Origin: Geomonas paludis
GTDB lineage: Bacteria; Desulfobacterota; Desulfuromonadia; Geobacterales; Geobacteraceae
Direction: 5' to 3'
Assembly (NCBI RefSeq): GCF_014193585.1
Contig: NZ_BLXY01000016.1
Coordinates: forward strand, 1 to 64,000
Length of the DNA: 64,000 nucleotides
This document shows positions 24,940-56,511 of this stretch, piece after piece (the first letter of the stretch is position 1; each line of letters starts with the position of its first letter). The translations under genes and the position numbers were made by a program. The notes below the pieces were generated by a model, which was not told the origin of the DNA, ran no database searches, and worked only from the letters and a program-made list of their open reading frames with translations.

Positions 24940-25545
24940 TCAGCTCCGCCCCGCCTGGTGGATACGCTCGGGGTCCACGCCCATGCGCAGCAGTTCATCG
25001 CGCAGAGCATCGCCGCGCTTCATGGAAGTGATCACGATGTTGTGGTTGCCGGACAAGAGACCGATGGCCGGAGTCACCACCGACTTATCGAAGAACTTCC
25101 GCCCGGCCGCCTCGGCGTCCATCGCCACCGTCAGTTCCATTCCTGCTTCTTTCAAGGAGAGATAGGCGATCTCGGCGACTTCGTCGATACCGCAGAAGGC
25201 AACCTGCTTGACGCCGTGCGCCGACATGGACTTGAACAGCTTGAGGTAATCCTGGCGCGCGACGGTGTAGAGGCCGGAAAAGTAGCTCAGGTGCTGATAG
25301 GCAAGGCGGCTTTTTTCGGCGAAGCCTTTGGGCGTGAGGAGGTAGGCGTAGCGGTTCTTGGGGAAGTTATTGACCCGGACGAAGCCCTTGGCTACCAGGT
25401 TCTTCAGGTAGGAGTTGACCAGACCCAAGGCGATGCCGAGGCGTTTCGCCAGCTCCCGTTGCGAGAGTTGCTGGTCCCCGGAGATCTCCGAGAGGAGGAG
25501 AAAAGAGCGATAAGTATCTAAAACCTTTTCGTCGTCACCGTTCAT
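24940..25545 (-). CDS. Winged-helix transcriptional regulator with C-terminal Rossmann-like domain
   Basis: The 201-residue protein has an N-terminal winged helix (about residues 20-80, with LSQRELAKRLGIALGLVNSYLKNLVAKGFV) and a C-terminal alpha/beta half including KQVAFCGIDEVAEIAYLSL. That half recalls a nucleotide- or sugar-binding fold. It is the first gene of the polysaccharide operon and probably controls it. No strong ribosome site precedes the ATG at 25545. Ligand unknown. Confidence 0.72.
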   Translation of the reverse strand: MNGDDEKVLDTYRSFLLLSEISGDQQLSQRELAKRLGIALGLVNSYLKNLVAKGFVRVNNFPKNRYAYLLTPKGFAEKSRLAYQHLSYFSGLYTVARQDYLKLFKSMSAHGVKQVAFCGIDEVAEIAYLSLKEAGMELTVAMDAEAAGRKFFDKSVVTPAIGLLSGNHNIVITSMKRGDALRDELLRMGVDPERIHQAGRS

Positions 25546-25592: not shown

Positions 25593-26158
25593 AAACCATT
25601 AACAAGGAGAAAATCTGAGGACATCTGAGAAAAGACAGAAACGGTGAAAACCTAAATTTTTTTCTTGGGAGAAACAAAAGCTAGAGCTGAAGACGCCGGA
25701 TGCCCTTCGTCAATAGCAAGGTGTTGAAGTTGATTAACAGACCTACGTGATATCCGCCTAGCTTCATGTAGGTTAAGAGCTGAGCTTCAAATACAGGGTC
25801 GTGATGCTCCACACTTTTCAGCTCCACCACCACTGTATCTTCCACAAGCAGGTCAACCCTATAGTCACCTACGTGTTCGCCTTTGTATTGCACTGGGAGT
25901 TGTTTTTGCCGATGGAAGTGGAGCCCCCGATTGAACAGTTCCACCGTTAGTGCACCCTCGTAGACGCTCTCCAGCAGCCCAGGCCCCAATTCCCTATGCA
26001 CCTCTACCGCGCAGGCGATGATCCGTTCCGTTAAGGCACTTAAAATCATCAGGCAGACCTCCCGTCGAAAGTCTACAAGACTAGCACAGAAGACAGCTTT
26101 TCTCAGCTTTCCTCAGATTTTCTCAGATTTTCTCAGATTTTCTCCCTGTGAGAGGTTT
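25593..26158. mobile_element. Inverted-repeat-bounded element carrying a GxxExxY gene (family A)
   Basis: The left arm begins AAACCATTAACAAGGAGA with AATCTGAG units (25593-25634). The right arm is its inverse, with CTCAGATTTT units and CCCTGTGAGAGGTTT ending at 26158. The GxxExxY gene occupies the middle. Three gene-less elements in this window (33905-34049, 39632-39766, 41234-41361) have the same arms about 130-145 bases apart. I infer a small mobile element with internally deleted derivatives; no target-site duplication could be settled by eye. Confidence 0.5.
25681..26049 (-). CDS. GxxExxY protein (PD-(D/E)XK nuclease-like)
   Basis: The 122-residue protein carries the defining GLLESVY (GxxExxY) at residues 24-30. 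It also has a PD-(D/E)XK-like core in which an Asp in YRVDLLVED is followed by VVVELKSVE (ExK), then LLTYMKLGGYHVGLLINFN. The length (about 125) is normal for the family. It is thought to be nuclease-related from fold only; its biological role is unknown. It lies between inverted repeat arms and is unrelated to the glycan genes on both sides, which suggests an insertion. Confidence 0.9.
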   Translation of the reverse strand: MILSALTERIIACAVEVHRELGPGLLESVYEGALTVELFNRGLHFHRQKQLPVQYKGEHVGDYRVDLLVEDTVVVELKSVEHHDPVFEAQLLTYMKLGGYHVGLLINFNTLLLTKGIRRLQL

Positions 26159-26163
26159 GTGGT

Positions 26164-27342
26164 TTAACGGGGTTTGATGAGGTGGCGGTAAATGCGGGTG
26201 AGGTCTTGCCCCCGGGCTTGCCAGGAGTGCAGTTGGACCGCTCGCTCGCGGCCTTCAGCGCCAAGCTCCTCGCGCAATTCGCGGTCGCCGGCCAGCCGGC
26301 CGATGGCTCCGGCCAGATCTGCGGCATCGCCGAACTTCGCGTACAGCGCGGCGTCTCCTAGGATCTCGCGGTTGACGGGGGTGTCGAATACGACGGTGGG
26401 GAGACCGCAGGCAATGTAGTTGAAGAGCTTGCCGTTGGCTTCGGTGAGGGAAACTTTGGGGGAGACGGCAAGATCGCCGGCACTCAGATACAACGGTGCC
26501 TCGTCGTACGGGATCCTGCCAGTGAAGGTGATGATGTCGGCAATCCCCATCGCCTCGGCCTTCTCACGATAGGCCGTGTCTGGGAATCCCATTATTAAAT
26601 AGTGGATCTTCGCCCCCTGCCCTTTCAGATAGGCGGCGGCTTCGAGCAAAAGATCCACCCCCTGATAGCTGTTCATCAGACCGAGGTAGGCGACGACGGG
26701 GCGCTTCTCGGGAAGTCCCAAACGCGCCCGGATCTCTGCTTTGGGCTGGGGAGCGAAAACGTCGGTGTCGACGCCGTCGATGAGGGCGCGCACCCGGTCC
26801 TTCGGCACGCCGTCTTTCAACAGCAAATCAACGGTAGGAGTGGCGCTGGTGACGATGAAGTCGGAACTGCGGTTGATCCAGCGCTCCAGGGTGGCGAAGA
26901 AGCGCTGCAACAGGGAGCCGGGCTTGACGAAGCCGTGGTCGGTGATCTCGGCGGTGAGACTTCCTTGGCAGTCGAACAGCATGGGAACGCGGATCAGCAT
27001 CTTGAGGAAGGCACCGAAGAAGGCGCCTTCGTGGAGATGTGCGTGAATGACGTGCGGTTTGAACTCGCGCGCGACCTGGAAGGCCTTGAGGAGGAGCTGC
27101 ACGTCGAGGAAAGGCTTCACCCAGGAAGGGCCGGCCTCCAGCTTTTTGTACCAGGAGAAGCCGGCGATCCTTTCGGTACGCACACCGGGAACGTCGCGCC
27201 CGATGTGGTAGGTGACCAGGCGGACATCCGCCCCGCAGGCAATGGCCGCCTTCGCCTCCTCCAAAATCCGGACGTGGCAGCCGCGATCCGCGAAGAACGG
27301 TGTCGGCGCCAGCACCAGTACGCGCAGCGCAGTGTCAGACAA
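26164..27342 (-). CDS. Glycosyltransferase family 4 (GT-B fold)
   Basis: The protein starts LSDTALRVLVLAPTPFFADRG and includes HAHLHEGAFFGAFLKML, VAYLGLMNSYQGVDLLLEAA and VSLTEANGKLFNYIACGLPTVVFD near the end, where the usual donor-binding EX7E motif is modified. I prefer the TTG at 27342 (392 residues), overlapping the GT2 stop by 8 bases; an ATG at 27390 would add 16 low-complexity residues. Its stop codon abuts the right arm of the family A repeat. Confidence 0.83.
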   Translation of the reverse strand: MSDTALRVLVLAPTPFFADRGCHVRILEEAKAAIACGADVRLVTYHIGRDVPGVRTERIAGFSWYKKLEAGPSWVKPFLDVQLLLKAFQVAREFKPHVIHAHLHEGAFFGAFLKMLIRVPMLFDCQGSLTAEITDHGFVKPGSLLQRFFATLERWINRSSDFIVTSATPTVDLLLKDGVPKDRVRALIDGVDTDVFAPQPKAEIRARLGLPEKRPVVAYLGLMNSYQGVDLLLEAAAYLKGQGAKIHYLIMGFPDTAYREKAEAMGIADIITFTGRIPYDEAPLYLSAGDLAVSPKVSLTEANGKLFNYIACGLPTVVFDTPVNREILGDAALYAKFGDAADLAGAIGRLAGDRELREELGAEGRERAVQLHSWQARGQDLTRIYRHLIKPR

Positions 27343-28285
27343 AGTTGATCTTTTCCTTGATGTTGTAGATCGGTTTCCCCTGCGCCTCATAGTAGGTGCG
27401 GGCGCTCAGTTCCGCCAGAAGTCCCAGCACGATGAACTGGACCCCCATGAAGAGCAGGAACGCGGTCAGGATCAACAACGGGTTGCGGTTCATGCTGGTG
27501 TTCTCGAAGAACTTCATGTACACGGTGACGGCGCCGCTCAGGAAACCCGCACACAGGGTGTAGATACCCCAGCGGCCGAAGAGCTGGATCGGCTTGGTCG
27601 AGTAGCTCAGCAGGAACTTAACGGTCATCAGGTCGAGGATCACCTTCATGGTGCGGGAGATGCCGTACTTGCTCTTGCCGTGCAGCCTTTCGTGGTGACG
27701 GACCGGCATCTCGGTGACCCGGGCGCCGACCTGGTGGGCGAGCGCCGGGACGAAGCGGTGCATCTCGCCGTACAGGTTGACGTCGTCGAGCACCTCGCGC
27801 CGGTAGGCTTTCAAGGTGCAGCCGTAGTCGTGCAGGTGTACGCCGGTCATCTTGGAGATGATGGAGTTGGCCAGGATGGAGGGGAGCTTGCGGTTCACGA
27901 AGGTGTCCTTGCGGTCCTTGCGCCACCCGGACACGACGTCGTACCCCTCGTCGATGCGCTTCAAAAGCAGCGGGATGTCGAGCGGGTCGTTCTGCAGGTC
28001 GCCGTCCATGGGGATCACCACGCGACCGCTGGCGGAATCAAAGCCGGCGGCCATGGCGGCGGTCTGGCCGAAGTTGCGGCGCAGGCGGATGACCTTGACC
28101 CGGTCATCCTTCGAGGAGAGACGCTTCAACGCCGGGTAGGAGTTGTCGGAGGAACCGTCATCAACCAGGATCAGCTCGTACTCCAGCCCGGTGTCTATCA
28201 GCGCATCGCTGATCCGCTCGTGCAGGATCGGGATGTTCTCTTCCTCGTTGTAAATGGGAACTACTATGCTCAGGTCCACTTTCAT
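27335..28285 (-). CDS. Membrane-bound GT2 (DPM1/ArnC-like, polyprenyl-phosphate type)
   Basis: The 316-residue protein has a GT2 catalytic part (VPIYNEEENIPILHE, LVDDGSSDNSY, MDGDLQNDP, RKDRKDTFVNR) and two C-terminal membrane helices at about residues 235-255 and 270-290. This layout is typical of enzymes that load a sugar onto undecaprenyl phosphate. It could supply donors to GT-C enzymes such as the YfhO-like protein at the operon end. Sugar unknown. Confidence 0.87.
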   Translation of the reverse strand: MKVDLSIVVPIYNEEENIPILHERISDALIDTGLEYELILVDDGSSDNSYPALKRLSSKDDRVKVIRLRRNFGQTAAMAAGFDSASGRVVIPMDGDLQNDPLDIPLLLKRIDEGYDVVSGWRKDRKDTFVNRKLPSILANSIISKMTGVHLHDYGCTLKAYRREVLDDVNLYGEMHRFVPALAHQVGARVTEMPVRHHERLHGKSKYGISRTMKVILDLMTVKFLLSYSTKPIQLFGRWGIYTLCAGFLSGAVTVYMKFFENTSMNRNPLLILTAFLLFMGVQFIVLGLLAELSARTYYEAQGKPIYNIKEKINFV

Positions 28286-28300
28286 CTCCCCTTAAAAAAA

Positions 28301-28517
28301 CGTTCAACGTTCAACGTTCAACGTTTAAACACATTACATGTCTTCGCAATAACAGCCGTTCAACGTTCAATGTTCAACGTTCGACACGGTCAACCGTCTT
28401 CGCTTCAATTGCTCGGCAACGGCTAGATCATCAACCCGTTACTTAGGGGCCGCGCCGCCGGGGTGCCCATCCGAAATCGGAGGATTGCCGTTAACGTTGA
28501 ACGTTGAACGTTGAACG
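28301..28517. repeat. Snap-back intergenic repeat, family B (GTTCAAC units)
   Basis: Runs of GTTCAACGTTCAACGTT at 28301-28326 and 28356-28383 are answered by inverse runs GTTGAACGTTGAACG at 28490-28517. The right-hand arm lies inside the 3' end of the neighbouring glycosyltransferase gene. The design, short tandem units in inverted orientation at each end, is the same as in family A. Confidence 0.75.
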
Positions 28518-29476
28518 GCTTCACCCAAAGGTTTGACCCGTCGCACCTCGACGTCCCAGTGGGTCTGTTTGCCGCCGCGGTAGCGGGGGCTGATCAGGCC
28601 GCGGATTACACCGGCTCCGTAGACCAGGTGCAGCGTCGGGTACACCAGCAACAACCGGGGGAAGAGCGCAGCATCCTTACCGGCCAGACTCCCCTGCATC
28701 GACGCCAGCACCACGATTGCCAGGTACACCAACAGCGGCAAGGCCGAGACGCCGAGCAACGGTATCAGCAACGGCACCAGCAACGCGTACACCAGGAACA
28801 GCGACGGCGCCAGCGTGATGGGTTTCAGCTTTCCGGCAATCAGGGTTTGCTCGCCGCGGCCGCGTCCGTAGCCGTACATCTGCCGGACATAGGCGCGGTA
28901 GGTGCGGCGCTGGCTGCGCTGGACCGCCAACTCGGGATCGTGCACCAACAGGTGCCCTTCCTGCTGCAGCCGGTCCATCAGCTCGTTTTCCTCGTTGGGA
29001 TAGAGCCGCTCGTCCAACCCCTCGTGCGCCAGAAAGATCTCGCGCCGAAAACTCAGGTTGCACAGGATCAATTCGCTGTCGCTGCTGTAGCGCGCCGCGC
29101 CGAACTTCCGGTAGCGATTGCGCACCCCGCCGCCGCCTACCGCGGAGGAAAACGCGATCCCGATGGCGCGCTGCAGGGGGGAATCGGTAGCGGGGGTAAG
29201 CGACGGACCGCCCACGGCGGCGACGTTCTGCTCCCGGTAGTGCGCTGCGGCACGGTCGAGGAAGTCGGGCGCCACGGCGGAATCGTCATCCAGGAAATAG
29301 AGGATCTCACCCTTGGCCTCACGTGCCGCAGTGTTCCTTTGCACGCTCGGCTGGCAGCCGTAGGCCACCAGCACCTCGAAGAGGTCGGCGGGATAGGTCA
29401 CCCTCGAGAGCCCCGCGAGCGCACGCACCTCGCCCCCCGGCTTGACCGGGATTATGACGGAAAATTTCGGCTGCAT
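28439..29476 (-). CDS. Glycosyltransferase family 2 with C-terminal membrane segments
   Basis: The 345-residue protein has FSVIIPVKPGGEVRALAGL, YFLDDDSAVAPDFLDRA with the Asp cluster, CNLSFRREIFL and LYPNEENELMDRLQQ. Hydrophobic helices lie near residues 225-275. The final 25 or so residues (from AVQRSTFNVNG) are encoded by a copy of the family B repeat, so the native end was probably near VKPLGE. It follows the cytochrome gene after a 63-base gap. Confidence 0.83.
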   Translation of the reverse strand: MQPKFSVIIPVKPGGEVRALAGLSRVTYPADLFEVLVAYGCQPSVQRNTAAREAKGEILYFLDDDSAVAPDFLDRAAAHYREQNVAAVGGPSLTPATDSPLQRAIGIAFSSAVGGGGVRNRYRKFGAARYSSDSELILCNLSFRREIFLAHEGLDERLYPNEENELMDRLQQEGHLLVHDPELAVQRSQRRTYRAYVRQMYGYGRGRGEQTLIAGKLKPITLAPSLFLVYALLVPLLIPLLGVSALPLLVYLAIVVLASMQGSLAGKDAALFPRLLLVYPTLHLVYGAGVIRGLISPRYRGGKQTHWDVEVRRVKPLGEAVQRSTFNVNGNPPISDGHPGGAAPK

Positions 29477-33904: not shown

Positions 33905-34049
33905 AAACCTTTCACAAGGAGAAAATCTGAGAAAATCTGAGACAAAGCGGAGAAAAGCACTGCTTTTGTTTTAGAACATAAAATCTTAAGGTTCTCTCCG
34001 CTTTTGCTTTTCCTCAGATGTCCTCAGATTTCCTCCTTGTTAAGGGTTT
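33905..34049. repeat. Snap-back intergenic repeat, family A
   Basis: The left arm AAACCTTTCACAAGGAG with AATCTGAG units is inverted at the right end (CCTCAGATTTCCTCCTTG, GGGTTT). The core of about 60 bases has no coding capacity. It lies between purD and purE, right after the purD stop, and can fold into one long hairpin. Confidence 0.85.
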
Positions 34050-37071: not shown

Positions 37072-37145
37072 TTGCCCACTCCTTTTTGTTGCTGCTCTTT
37101 GATGGTGATTAGATATTTAAAGCATAACCACAGAGGTCACAGGAA

Positions 37146-37317
37146 GGGGACTGGCTCCGCCAGGTGCCTGTCCCCCTTTACTTCAAAAAAGCATATCCAC
37201 AAAGGACACAGAGGATCACTGAGGACACAGAGAAAAATTCGAGGGTGAAAAACCTCAACGTCTTATGCCTTTCCTCCAACCTGTCAAGGGGACAGGCACC
37301 TGGCGGAGCCAGTCCCC
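37146..37317. repeat. BIME-like pair of inverted 30-base palindromic units
   Basis: The 30-base unit at 37146-37175 (starting GGGGACTGGCTCCGCC) is a perfect reverse complement of that at 37288-37317 (starting GGGGACAGGCACCTGG). Each unit is itself nearly palindromic. Between them are CACAGAGGACACAGAG-type runs (37199-37235), another common simple repeat. It lies between purH and the ASKHA gene and reaches the latter's stop codon. No REP-associated transposase gene is in the window. Confidence 0.85.
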
Positions 37318-37318
37318 A

Positions 37319-38581
37319 TCAGGCTTCTGTTTTTTTCGGGAAATCTATATTTGCCAGGAAGTGCTTTTCGAAGAGCGGAGTGCCGGAAAGGGGGATGACC
37401 CGGACCATTTGCGCCAGGGCCTCCATCTGTTCGCGGCCGTCCGTGGCAAGCAGTACACGCTCCACGCCGGCCAGCGCCCCTTCCTTGATAAATCCGGTGA
37501 TTCTTACCATTTTTTCGTTGAAAATTCCAACCTTTTTTAGCACATCCGGCGAGAGCACGGCGCCAAAGGAACCTGTCAGCACCACCCGCGAAACGTCGTC
37601 CATGGACAGGTTCGCCTTCCCCAGCAGGATCTCCATGCCGCCGCGCATCGCCCCCTTGGCGAGTTGCAGCGCCCGGATGTCCTCCTGGTCGAGATAGACC
37701 AGGCTTTTTGCGTCCCGGTGCAGAATGAAGGCGGGCATGCCGTTCACCTCCTGCACCCGGTTGCCCAGGTTCGACTCGATCTCGGCGGCCGGGAGGAGCC
37801 TGCCGGTCGGGTCGATGACGCCCTGCTCCAAAAGGGCGGCCACCGTGTCCAGGACGCCCGTACCGCAAATGCCGCGAGGGGGAGCGCCGGCGATGGTGGA
37901 TAAAAGTAGCCTGTCCCCTTTTATTTCGACGCCACTCACGGCGCCGGGGAGCGCGGCCATGCCGCACTTCAAGTTGCCTCCTTCGAAGGCGGGGCCGGCG
38001 GCGGCCGAAGTGGCGAGGTAACGCTCGCCGTCGAAAAGGGCGATCTCGGCGTTGGTGCCGACATCGAGGAAGAGGGTCGCGGCCGCGGGCGCCTCAGGCA
38101 GGCCGAAGAGAAAGGCAAGCAGGTCGCCCCCGACGAAGCCGCCCGGAAGCGGCAGCAGGTAGCAGGGATAGTCGCGGCTCCAGCCGAGGTCGAGGGTGGT
38201 TACGGATTTTCCGGTGGAGAAAAGGGGGCGAAACGGAGGATGGGCCAGCGAGTCGACCGGCAGGGCCAGGGCGATGGTTTCCATGGAAGGGTTGCCGGCG
38301 ATGGCCACCTGCGTGAGATCCGCGGGCGACGCCCCGGCCTGGTCCAACAGCACGCCGGTCATGCGCTCCATCTCGGCGGCCAGGGCCGCCTGCATTTCCC
38401 GCAGTGTTTCAGGATCTCCCCCGGCGGTGAGGCGGGCGAGGACGTCGGTTCCCCAGCGGCGCTGGGGATTCATGGCGCCGGTGACGGCGAGCCGCGTTCC
38501 TGTGGCCGGATCGACAAGCGACGCAGCTATGGTGGTGGTGCCAAGGTCGAAAGCGGCGGCGAGCCCCTTAGACGAAGACAA
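37319..38581 (-). CDS. ASKHA-domain protein (DUF4445, RACo C-terminal type)
   Basis: The protein opens with the ATPase phosphate-1 motif [16 protein letters not shown]. Further on it has [28 protein letters not shown] and [11 protein letters not shown], which match the ASKHA domain of RACo-type reductive activators of corrinoid proteins. Those normally carry an N-terminal 2Fe-2S ferredoxin domain, which is missing here. The likely start is the TTG at 38581 (GGGGAG 7 bases upstream), giving 420 residues and a 14-base overlap with selD. No corrinoid methyltransferase was recognised nearby, so the partner is unknown. Confidence 0.75.
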
Positions 38582-39631: not shown

Positions 39632-39766
39632 AAACCTTTCACAGGGAGAAAATCTGAGGAAATCTGAGAACTGCACTTCCTGAGGAAATCAAAAGACTTT
39701 GGGGTTAAACCAAAAGCTCTTTAGGTTTTCTCAGATGTTCTCAGATTTTCTCCCTGTGAAAGGTTT
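39632..39766. repeat. Snap-back intergenic repeat, family A
   Basis: The left arm AAACCTTTCACAGGGAGA with AATCTGAG units is matched by the inverse right arm (CTCAGATTTTCTCCCTGTG, AAAGGTTT). The first 19 arm bases are a perfect inverted match. It lies between alr and selD, upstream of the selD start. Confidence 0.87.
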
Positions 39767-41066: not shown

Positions 41067-41084
41067 TACGCCTTCAGCAAAAAG

Positions 41085-41175
41085 CCAGCTAGGGGAGTTC
41101 GTCAGAACTGAGACAGGGCGATCCTGAACCCTTTGAACCTGATCCGGGTAGTACCGGCGTAGGGAAGCGGCGCGT
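41085..41175 (+). promoter_or_regulatory. TPP riboswitch (THI element)
   Basis: The plus strand has AGGGGAG, then CTGAGA (41109-41114), CCCTTTGAACCTGATC (41130-41145), GGGTAGTACCGGCGTAGGGA. These are the thi-box core motifs in the right order and spacing. It lies upstream of thiE-thiD and thiC and should repress them when thiamine pyrophosphate is bound. Confidence 0.93.
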
Positions 41176-41195
41176 ACTCCGACCTTTTCATCGTG

Positions 41196-41233: not shown

Positions 41234-41361
41234 AGAACCCTTCACAAGGAGGAAATCTGAGAAAATCTGAGAAAGCAAGGTTCTGGTTTAACCCAAAAGC
41301 CTGGTTTTCTCCCGTTTCTGCTTTCTCAGATGTCCTCAGATTTTCTCCTTGTTAGTGGTTT
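41234..41361. repeat. Snap-back intergenic repeat, family A, inside the thiamine leader
   Basis: The left arm GAACCCTTCACAAGGAGG with AATCTGAG units is inverted at the right end (TCAGATTTTCTCCTTGTTAG). It lies between the riboswitch terminator and the first thiamine gene, so it is transcribed in their leader. It could fold into a second hairpin after the terminator. Confidence 0.83.
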
Positions 41362-41388: not shown

Positions 41389-42846
41389 TTGTTAAGACTC
41401 GTGGTCGACCATAGCGGGAAGGAGCGGCGTGTAGCGGGACTGTACCTGATCACGGACCAGGGCGAACGCCTGGTGCCGCGGGTGCGGGAGGCGCTCGGGA
41501 GCGGCGGGGTCGCCCTGCTGCAGTACCGCGACAAGCTGCGCAGCTTCGAGGAGCGCCTGTCGCTCGGCAACGACCTGAAACACCTCTGCACCGAGTTCCA
41601 GGTCAAGTTCATCGTCAACGACGACCTGGAGCTCGCGCTCGCCCTGGACGCCGACGGACTGCACCTGGGCCAGGAGGACGGCGACCCGGCGGCGGCCCGC
41701 GCGGCGCTGGGCCCCAAGAAACTGATCGGCATCTCCACCCACTCCATGGAAGAAGCGCTCGCCGCACAGGAGGCGGGTGCCGACTACATTGGCTTCGGCT
41801 CCCTCTACCCCACCGAGAGCAAGGAAGTCGAGCACCTGCAGAGCCCGGAAGCGCTGGCCCAGTTGAGGGAAAAGGTACAGATCCCCATCGTGGCCATCGG
41901 CGGCATCAACCGCGACAACGCCTGCGCGGTGATCGACGCCGGCGCGGATGCCGTCGCGGTCATCTCGGCCGTCCTCGCCGCCCGCTCGCCCGGCCTCGCC
42001 GCGACGGAACTCTCCCTGTTGTTCAACCGCACCCTGACGCAGCCGCGCGGTTCGGTGCTCACCATCGCCGGCAGCGATTCCGGCGGCGGCGCGGGGATCC
42101 AGGCCGACCTGAAGACCATCACCCTGCTGGGGAGCTACGGCGCCTCGGCCATCACCGCCCTCACCGCCCAGAACACCCGGGGCGTCACCGGGATCCATTC
42201 TTCTCCGCCGGCCTTCCTGGCGGAACAGATCGACGCGGTGCTGTCGGACATCCCCATCGACGTGGTGAAGATCGGCATGCTGTCATCTCCGGAGAACGCG
42301 GAGATCGTCGCCGACAAGCTGACCGCCTACGAGATGAGGATGGTGGTGCTCGACCCGGTGATGAGCGCCAAGGGGGGCGTGGCGCTCCTCGAGGACGAGG
42401 CGCTCTCGGTGCTGAAAAAAAGGCTGGTGCCGCTGAGCTACCTGGTCACCCCCAACATCCCGGAGGCCGAGGCCCTTACCGGTCTCACCATCACCGACAG
42501 CGCCGGCATGGAGCTGGCTGCGCGCGCCCTGCATCTCATGGGGGCCAAACACGTGCTGGTCAAGGGGGGGCACCTGACCGAAGGGGTGGTCACCGACATA
42601 CTCTTCGACGGCAACGGCTTCACCCGCTTCAGTGCGCCCCGCGTGCTCACCCGCAACACCCACGGCACCGGCTGCACGTTGGCATCTGCCATCGCGACCA
42701 ACCTGGCCCAGGGCGAGCCGCTGCCGAGCGCCGTCCTGAGGGCGAAGCTGTTCGTCACCCGCGCCATCAAGTTTTCCCAGCCTCTGGGGAAGGGGCACGG
42801 GCCGGTGAACCATTTCCTGGCAGCACGGGAGCAAGCGGACAGCTAA
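41389..42846 (+). CDS. thiED: ThiE-ThiD fusion: thiamine-phosphate synthase / HMP(-P) kinase
   Basis: The 485-residue protein fuses ThiE (about residues 15-205; LLQYRDK, VNDDLELALALDADGLHLGQ, GADYIGFGSLYPT, IPIVAIGGIN) to ThiD (about 222-480; VLTIAGSDSGGGAGIQADLK, VVLDPVMSAKGG, LVTPNIPEAEAL, NTHGTGCTLASAIA). It phosphorylates the pyrimidine and joins it to the thiazole. The start is a TTG at 41389 with AGAGG 7 bases upstream; a GTG at 41401 is an alternative. It is TPP-riboswitch controlled. Confidence 0.93.
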   Translation: MLRLVVDHSGKERRVAGLYLITDQGERLVPRVREALGSGGVALLQYRDKLRSFEERLSLGNDLKHLCTEFQVKFIVNDDLELALALDADGLHLGQEDGDPAAARAALGPKKLIGISTHSMEEALAAQEAGADYIGFGSLYPTESKEVEHLQSPEALAQLREKVQIPIVAIGGINRDNACAVIDAGADAVAVISAVLAARSPGLAATELSLLFNRTLTQPRGSVLTIAGSDSGGGAGIQADLKTITLLGSYGASAITALTAQNTRGVTGIHSSPPAFLAEQIDAVLSDIPIDVVKIGMLSSPENAEIVADKLTAYEMRMVVLDPVMSAKGGVALLEDEALSVLKKRLVPLSYLVTPNIPEAEALTGLTITDSAGMELAARALHLMGAKHVLVKGGHLTEGVVTDILFDGNGFTRFSAPRVLTRNTHGTGCTLASAIATNLAQGEPLPSAVLRAKLFVTRAIKFSQPLGKGHGPVNHFLAAREQADS

Positions 42847-42851
42847 AGCCT

Positions 42852-42964
42852 GCGCCCCCTCTCCCTCTGGGAGAGGGTTGGGGTGAGGGCCTCCAAGGTA
42901 AACATCGCAGCCGGCACCATCCCTCACCCGGCCTTCGGCCACCCTCTCCCGGAGGGAGAGGGGA
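42852..42964. repeat. Snap-back intergenic repeat, family D (CCCTCTCCC units)
   Basis: CCCCTCTCCCTCTGGGAGAG and GGGTGAGGG at the left are answered by CCCTCACCC and CCACCCTCTCCCGGAGGGAG at the right. Further copies lie at about 56040-56135 and 56345-56435. It separates thiE-thiD from thiC. Confidence 0.8.
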
Positions 42965-42981
42965 GAAAAAACCGAAAAGGC

Positions 42982-55988: not shown

Positions 55989-56449
55989 CATCAGCCCCCG
56001 CAGGCGCCCAAGGCGCCGCGGGGGCTTTTTGTTGTGTTCCCTCTCCCTATGGGAGAGGGTGCCCGAAGGGCGGGTGAGGGCGTTTTTTGCCTGCTACATC
56101 CCTCACCCTGACCCTCTCCCAGAGGGAGAGGGGACGTGGACGTCCTCTCTCCTCCCGCTGGAGGGGGTGGTTCCTGGTTCCCAAGCTCCAGCTTGGGAAC
56201 CTAATCTGGCGCATAGCTCCAGTTTTGCATCCGAGATGGCTGTAGCTTCGAGGGGCTTTGCGTTCCCAAGGTGGACCTTGGGAACGAGATTAACATCAGC
56301 CCCCGCAGGCGCCCAAGGTGCCGCGGGGCTTTTTGTTGTGTTCCCTCTCCCTATGGGAGAGGGTGCCCGAAGGGCGGGTGAGGGCGTTTTTTGCCTGCTA
56401 CATCCCTCACCCTAACCCTCTCCCAGAGGGAGAGGGGACGTGGACGTCC
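55989..56449. repeat. Direct repeat of about 157 bases enclosing hairpin units
   Basis: 55989-56145 and 56294-56449 are nearly identical. Each has the CATCAGCCCCCGC terminator hairpin, a CCCTCTCCC-type family D snap-back element and GTGGACGTCC. Between them lie two inverted hairpins, GGTTCCCAAGCTCCAGCTTG (56176-56201) and CGTTCCCAAGGTGGACCTTG (56261-56286). The rest of the 562-base gap to the next stop codon shows no gene. Confidence 0.88.
55993..56030 (+). terminator. Rho-independent terminator of the LuxE-like gene
   Basis: AGCCCCCGC and GCGGGGGCT pair around an inner GGCGCC-CAA-GGCGCC stem, followed by TTTTT. It is the first part of a duplicated segment, so a near-copy exists at 56298-56334. 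Confidence 0.9.
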
Positions 56450-56511
56450 ACTCTCATCCCCCAGGAGGGGGAGGTAGGGAGGGGGAAGTTTTTCCCCTGT
56501 CCAGCCCTTCC

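Follow-up and report, generated by a model that had tools for sequence, protein, structure and literature searches.

The first 64,000 nucleotides (nt) of contig NZ_BLXY01000016.1 of Geomonas paludis, which we call the window, contain at positions 25593-26158 a small element in which a gene of the GxxExxY protein family is enclosed by inverted arms made of AATCTGAG-word units. The gene (25681-26049, minus strand) encodes 122 amino acids. The left arm (25593-25632, plus strand) was found by the inverted-repeat search and consists of inward-reading 10-nt units of AATCTGAG type, while the right arm, on the minus strand at 26118-26158, precedes the start of the gene and with its extra tandem units spans 26094-26158, the tandem array of five 10-nt units occupying 26094-26144. 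The best ungapped pair of arms is 48 nt long, 83% complementary and spaced by 484 nt. The limits of the whole element follow from the arm search, the profile matches and the orthologous sites of relatives, and its slot is the space between a gene for a MarR-type regulator (24940-25545) and one for a glycosyltransferase (26164-27390). Three gene-less hairpins of the AATCTGAG-type word lie further along, at 33905-34049, 39632-39766 and 41234-41361, and their folding as single DNA strands is better than that of dinucleotide shuffles by 7.1, 9.6 and 7.3 standard deviations (z scores of -7.1, -9.6 and -7.3). An earlier note, made from the letters of this DNA, had described both the gene between inverted arms and the three gene-less hairpins nearby, and the repeat search and profile matches confirmed all of these.

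The window protein matches TIGR04256 with 147.3 bits (cut-off 35) and PF13366 (PDDEXK_3) with 145.5 bits (cut-off 22). In the profile search these were its only matches, with no HUH/Y1 transposase and no other transposase model among them. Five residues, D66, E76, K78, Q90 and Y94, are invariant among 26 aligned sequences, and the structure model of the protein has a predicted local distance difference test score (pLDDT) of 96. In the usual naming of PD-(D/E)XK motifs, QxxxY marks the Cas4/RecB branch, and SSO0001 is a Cas4. The conserved residues and the model point to a predicted PD-(D/E)XK nuclease active site like that of Cas4, RecB and lambda exonuclease, formed by D66, E76-x-K78 and Q90-x3-Y94. 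The likeness to this branch lies in the invariant D, E-x-K and Q-x3-Y and may extend to the predicted fold, whereas GxxExxY differs in being a lone domain of about 120 residues that is encoded within its own repeat element. A sequence search against solved structures gave one weak match, lmo1582 (E 0.039). Three GxxExxY proteins of the source genome matched none of the families of PADLOC or PHROGs, and on this ground a defence or phage origin was rejected.

Inverted arms are a general companion of GxxExxY genes. We collected 252 locus ids from relatives, the phylum, an 80-locus genome collection and 40 genomes reached from those, and after dropping 32 duplicates and four loci at contig ends 216 remained. 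With an inverted-arm score cut-off of 28, fixed after the control distribution was known, 172 of these 216 loci, which are mostly best matches per genome or hand-chosen from match lists, lie between arms, compared with 13 of 1635 displaced windows from the same loci. The earlier note had proposed to compare the frequency of GxxExxY genes between arms with chance, and the enrichment was borne out: neither a lack of enrichment nor an origin of the two arms from independent insertions was found. By source, the cut-off is reached by 29/33 loci of the source genome and its relatives, 63/80 of the genome collection and 19/28 of the phylum, and by 42/55 further loci from the collection genomes and 19/20 from the relatives. 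The 63 passing loci of the collection cover 17 named phyla and one archaeal locus (archaeal loci pass in one of three cases). The median length is 495 nt for the element and 34 nt for the arm. The family itself is very common, with at least 7999 candidates scored, all of them passing.

Several controls bear on this count. Paired word units on both sides, scored in a separate test, were found at 146/216 loci versus 3/1584 windows, and all 33 loci submitted to a shuffle test gave p ≤0.02 (100 shuffles each). Loci of the ParE toxin from the same relatives never pass the arm cut-off (0/26, top score 22, four of 30 fetched loci with short flanks having been excluded). When left and right flanks were swapped between loci, 128/1402 combinations still scored at least 28, because loci share words. 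Displaced windows, ParE genes, flank swaps and shuffles together refute chance arms. A tandem-lag detector separated genes from displaced windows only weakly and was therefore replaced by the arm and word-pair tests. From a search at a permissive E of 1 we took 20 remnant GxxExxY loci; 18 of them could be tested, and 11 are still enclosed by arms, one of these (L407) with a different type of repeat. At one surveyed locus, L401 (G032:C3:168005-173750), about 3 kb hold three tandem CACGAA-word units. The arms of each unit are 388 nt apart and enclose a GxxExxY match, and two of the units are near-identical across 300 nt. Unusually long arms, with scores of 95 and 106 and no short words in them, are found at L043 (genome G016) and L069.

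The source genome (5.11 Mb in 30 contigs) carries many copies of the repeats. AATCTGAGNANATCTGAG has 64 whole-genome matches at one mismatch at most, in 42 places, while the same word read backwards, taken as a control, has none. Its plus/minus pairs within 250 nt are inward-facing in 16 cases and outward-facing in none. Four GxxExxY matches were found in this genome, each with arms of its own distinct word: AATCTGAG at the first (L001, arm score 56), GGGATAAAAG at the second (L002, 50), an ACGGATT-type pair at the third (L003, a weak score of 26, under the later cut-off) and CACAGAGGAC at the fourth (L004, 60), where the arms enclose a GxxExxY remnant of about 35 codons.

Read inward, the arms repeat every 8-10 nt a unit that approximates C[A/G]C-N-R-A-N, as in CACAGAGA, CGCAAAGA, CACGGATT, CACGAATT, CACGAAAA, CACGAAGG and ACAGGGAT. 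The arm word goes with the clade of the protein and not with the host. We labelled loci by the last letter of the word, which was possible for 158 of the 172 loci, 155 of them in the protein tree. Doubtful labels are those of L056 (A, although GGAT is its most frequent word), L085 (T, its arms not resembling the words) and L043 (read in flipped sense). On the tree the label changes 11 times, compared with a mean of 42.3 and a minimum of 35 in 500 shuffles. A label taken from the nearest protein is correct in 91% of rows, versus about 55% for shuffled labels, and it is still correct in 88% with neighbours less than 60% identical and in 78% with those less than 50% identical; recall of the rare A class is 0.7 overall, 0.6 and 0.1 at the same two limits. 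Among genomes with two or more assigned labelled loci, 21/28 hold at least two word classes, and therefore the host does not set the word; this count includes G199, whose two-class status is doubtful because of the doubtful label of L085. Across phyla, protein identity and arm similarity correlate with a rho of 0.29 (108 loci, 4486 pairs), a value reached in none of 1000 permutations, in a sample where some pairs are wrongly cross-phylum, Desulfobacterota and Thermodesulfobacteriota (three loci) being one phylum.

The alignment columns that best track the word, which are confounded by descent, include two positions of the GxxExxY loop (23 and 25) and two of the helix that carries Q90 and Y94 (93 and 97). 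P23, T93, L25, L97 and other residues may offer a lead. Raw scores gave no information on whether the two arms evolve in concert, because orthologous flanks dominate them. The earlier note had also mentioned family members with peptides that resemble translated repeats, and repeat-like N-terminal peptides do occur in some homologues: HRDTE is translated CACAGAGACACAGAG, and P0044, P0062 and P0076 begin with SHRDTE or SHRVTE, which is the translated arm word. Some predicted GxxExxY starts may be placed too far upstream.

The history of the window site can be followed in the genus. Elements of the same lineage occupy it in G006, G012 and G018, and by flank homology also in G004, whose regulator gene falls beyond the stretch compared. 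In G017 both arms and both ends of the gene are kept while the middle of the gene is lost, an internal deletion in place. Gene-less hairpins of the AATCTGAG-type word are found there in G005 and G014 and hairpins of CACGGAG-type words in G007 and G015; G016 has only 56 nt between the genes, and other species have other repeats. Long direct-repeat arrays of GAATTCGTCG-like and GTCACTTC-like units, with no hairpin, fill the site at L207 and L213-L216 (G013, G008, G009, G001 and G011), and arrays of a TGTAAC(C/G)(A/G)TTACA-like palindrome, an unrelated family, stand beside the window-site hairpins at L204, L206 and L209 (G003, G006 and G012).

The sites of the gene-less hairpins vary as well. At 33.9 kb, where the hairpin is missing from the orthologous place in several species, 10/19 genomes have a hairpin of the window kind, there is a single arm in G008 and a different repeat in G002, and no hairpin was seen in the 260 nt inspected of G013, G017, G011, G001, G015, G007 and G016; by eye, G003, G012 and G006 show one hairpin inside another. 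The hairpin at 39632-39766 has flanks that are orthologous in relatives. The 41.2-kb slot can hold hairpins of other words in other species. Six species have ACGCAAAG-type hairpins there and seven have AATCTGAG; G016 has a GGGAT hairpin, G004, G015 and G007 have CACGGAG types, and in G008 and G017 the sequence is decayed. A thiamine pyrophosphate riboswitch (RF00059, 75.6 bits) lies just before this slot in the window, at 41081-41182. Between six syntenic blocks we found 18 insertions 60-700 nt long, a count that covers both directions and sometimes includes one place repeatedly; eight of the 18 score as hairpins, among them a different repeat in G002 and a doubtful case in G012 (442 nt).

A catalogue of 42 loci from the genus sorts into eight protein clusters and ten flank-homology sites, where site label 0 joins two gene lineages by single linkage and is not read as one site. 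Five clusters with at least two members have every member, or every member except one, at a single site, and the largest cluster is divided between two sites whose words differ. Exceptions to the fixed site are L379, L393 and the singletons L043 and L394. The gene is therefore mostly inherited in place while the hairpins of its word vary.

Three words were counted in 19 related Geomonas genomes, which were compared by presence or absence of the cognate gene lineage. TGAG averages 54.5 copies in the four genomes with the gene and 19.2 in the 15 without it (p 0.004), and GGAT 110.9 in eight genomes and 69.9 in 11 (p 0.014), both p values ignoring kinship. The corresponding means for AGAG are 46.5 (six genomes) and 24.8 (13 genomes). 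Six mismatched pairs of gene and word gave p values from 0.17 to 0.77. The hairpins of a word thus tend to reach higher numbers in genomes that carry its gene lineage, a difference that is clear for two of the three words.

This behaviour resembles that of repetitive extragenic palindromic (REP) sequences arranged as hairpins (REPINs) and their REP-associated tyrosine transposases (RAYTs). According to PMC8049555, the RAYT gene is resident, mostly vertical in inheritance and flanked by inverted copies of a repeat that also forms many gene-less intergenic hairpins, and the hairpins are more numerous where the gene is present. GxxExxY genes are likewise flanked by inverted copies of a genome-dispersed repeat, are mostly vertical at a fixed site with variable hairpins (in the 42-locus catalogue, with its exceptions) and may go with higher hairpin numbers. 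They differ in matching PDDEXK_3, not an HUH/Y1 tyrosine transposase, in having arms of tandem 8-10-nt words where REPs are single palindromes, and in the coexistence of several word families and their genes in one genome. The comparison holds for behaviour; membership fails because the defining HUH transposase is not encoded by the GxxExxY gene. The earlier note had instead taken the gene with its arms for an autonomous element and the gene-less hairpins for its derivatives, in the manner of miniature inverted-repeat transposable elements (MITEs). Part of this stands, since G017 has produced a gene-less derivative by deletion in place, and terminal inverted arms, internal deletion derivatives and presence or absence at orthologous sites are shared with MITEs and their autonomous insertion sequences. 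The other part is not supported, as GxxExxY matches no transposase model and the gene lineages mostly keep stable sites while the hairpins vary. By this comparison, the pattern appears nearer to REPIN/RAYT, in which an enzyme is resident and its cognate hairpins are dispersed, than to an autonomous transposon.

We consider it rather probable that gene and arms are one unit, that the predicted nuclease likely recognises its own word and would cut the folded hairpin, and that copies of the gene-less hairpins would in this way arise at new intergenic sites without the gene leaving its place. The GxxExxY protein would bind its own word in the arm, where units about one helical turn apart would align on one face of the DNA, and would cut the hairpin when it arises in replication or as a cruciform. 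Repair of the break or template switching at the fork would then copy the hairpin elsewhere, and loss of the gene would leave hairpins that decay. DNA cleavage, a hairpin or cruciform substrate and copying driven by cleavage are what we infer here, and GxxExxY may be the mobiliser or the maintainer of the hairpins. The broader proposal, that a lone nuclease of Cas4/RecB fold with an evolvable word code drives dispersing hairpins throughout the prokaryotes and so reinvents REPIN/RAYT with unrelated chemistry, is plausible, and we would stop just short of calling it probable.

A number of observations weigh against the reading of a resident nuclease that disperses its hairpins. The arm cut-off is missed by 44/216 loci, of which 38 show word pairs on one side or both (versus 150/1584 windows). 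The filled and empty sites that the earlier note had proposed to compare revealed no clear or conserved target duplication at the few clean pairs; at 33.9 kb all comparisons use the empty site of G017, with 1-9 nt unaligned against G000, G003, G010 and G012. Movement of the GxxExxY gene was not seen within the genus in the 42-locus catalogue. All 19 genomes in the copy counts are related, and the p value for AGAG, which like the others ignores kinship, is 0.052, rising to 0.11 without the G000 remnant and to 0.20 with intact genes only. G004 has a TGAG-lineage gene with arms of another word and a single TGAG copy; it was scored as lacking the TGAG gene, and as a carrier it would change the p value for TGAG to 0.023. 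G010 has 58 TGAG copies with no TGAG-lineage gene among its four matches.

Other explanations give the arms a different origin or the protein a different task. GxxExxY could act as a caretaker, likely one that works like a junction resolvase in trimming or resolving the cruciforms or hairpins of its own word and keeps the arms symmetrical, while the hairpins multiply by replication slippage and template switching; we regard this as rather unlikely, yet the most serious of the alternatives. Classic MITEs are moved by enzymes encoded elsewhere, and by analogy another enzyme might move the hairpins, the GxxExxY genes being merely caught between arms. That is very doubtful when members of the family are enclosed by arms across at least 17 named phyla, when its clade predicts the word and when the ParE genes of the same genomes are never found in this position. 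The arms might also serve the gene as transcript hairpins or operator repeats, or be the repeat operator of a defence or toxin system. Their closeness to the gene on both sides, in an element of so short a median length, and the repetition of units inside each arm, as operator sites can show, would fit such a role; the gene-less copies of the same hairpins at dozens of places, the lack of PADLOC and PHROGs matches for the three source-genome proteins and a downstream mirror copy that an operator does not need make it improbable. Finally, repeats could be so common that arms enclose small intergenic genes by mere coincidence, as the few passing displaced windows and the matching flank swaps, with their shared words, might suggest. 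The excess of GxxExxY loci over those windows, the ParE result and the agreement of word and clade leave this explanation barely credible.

Multicopy intergenic sequences that are palindromic or directly repeated, several to an intergenic region, are described from the Geobacter group in the accessible portions of PMC2996986, PMC2700814 and PMC3543383. By description they resemble the GxxExxY hairpins as palindromic or direct intergenic repeats in related genomes, and differ in that a link to a gene is absent from those portions. In the open-access literature, with subscription journals and supplements outside its scope, our search found no link of the GxxExxY family to repeats, nor any paper with PDDEXK_3 or with a repeat string. 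The tie between gene and repeat gives this orphan family a likely job, explains the repeat-like N-terminal peptides in gene predictions and offers a natural protein-DNA code for deciphering. The proposed dispersal would add a new enzyme fold to those able to disperse non-autonomous DNA and, if true, would explain CACAGAGACACAGAG-like repeats in a large number of phyla and assign a function to an entire family of orphan proteins.

The window contains further repeats. A separate inverted-repeat family with CCCTCTCCC words occurs at 42830-42969 and 56021-56475, the second place consisting of two 151-nt direct copies. At 28299-28520 the heptamer AACGTTC / CGTTGAA forms inverted arrays, and at 37143-37320 there is a GC-rich inverted repeat of 33 nt, 97% complementary with a spacing of 112 nt, that is unlike the word arms.
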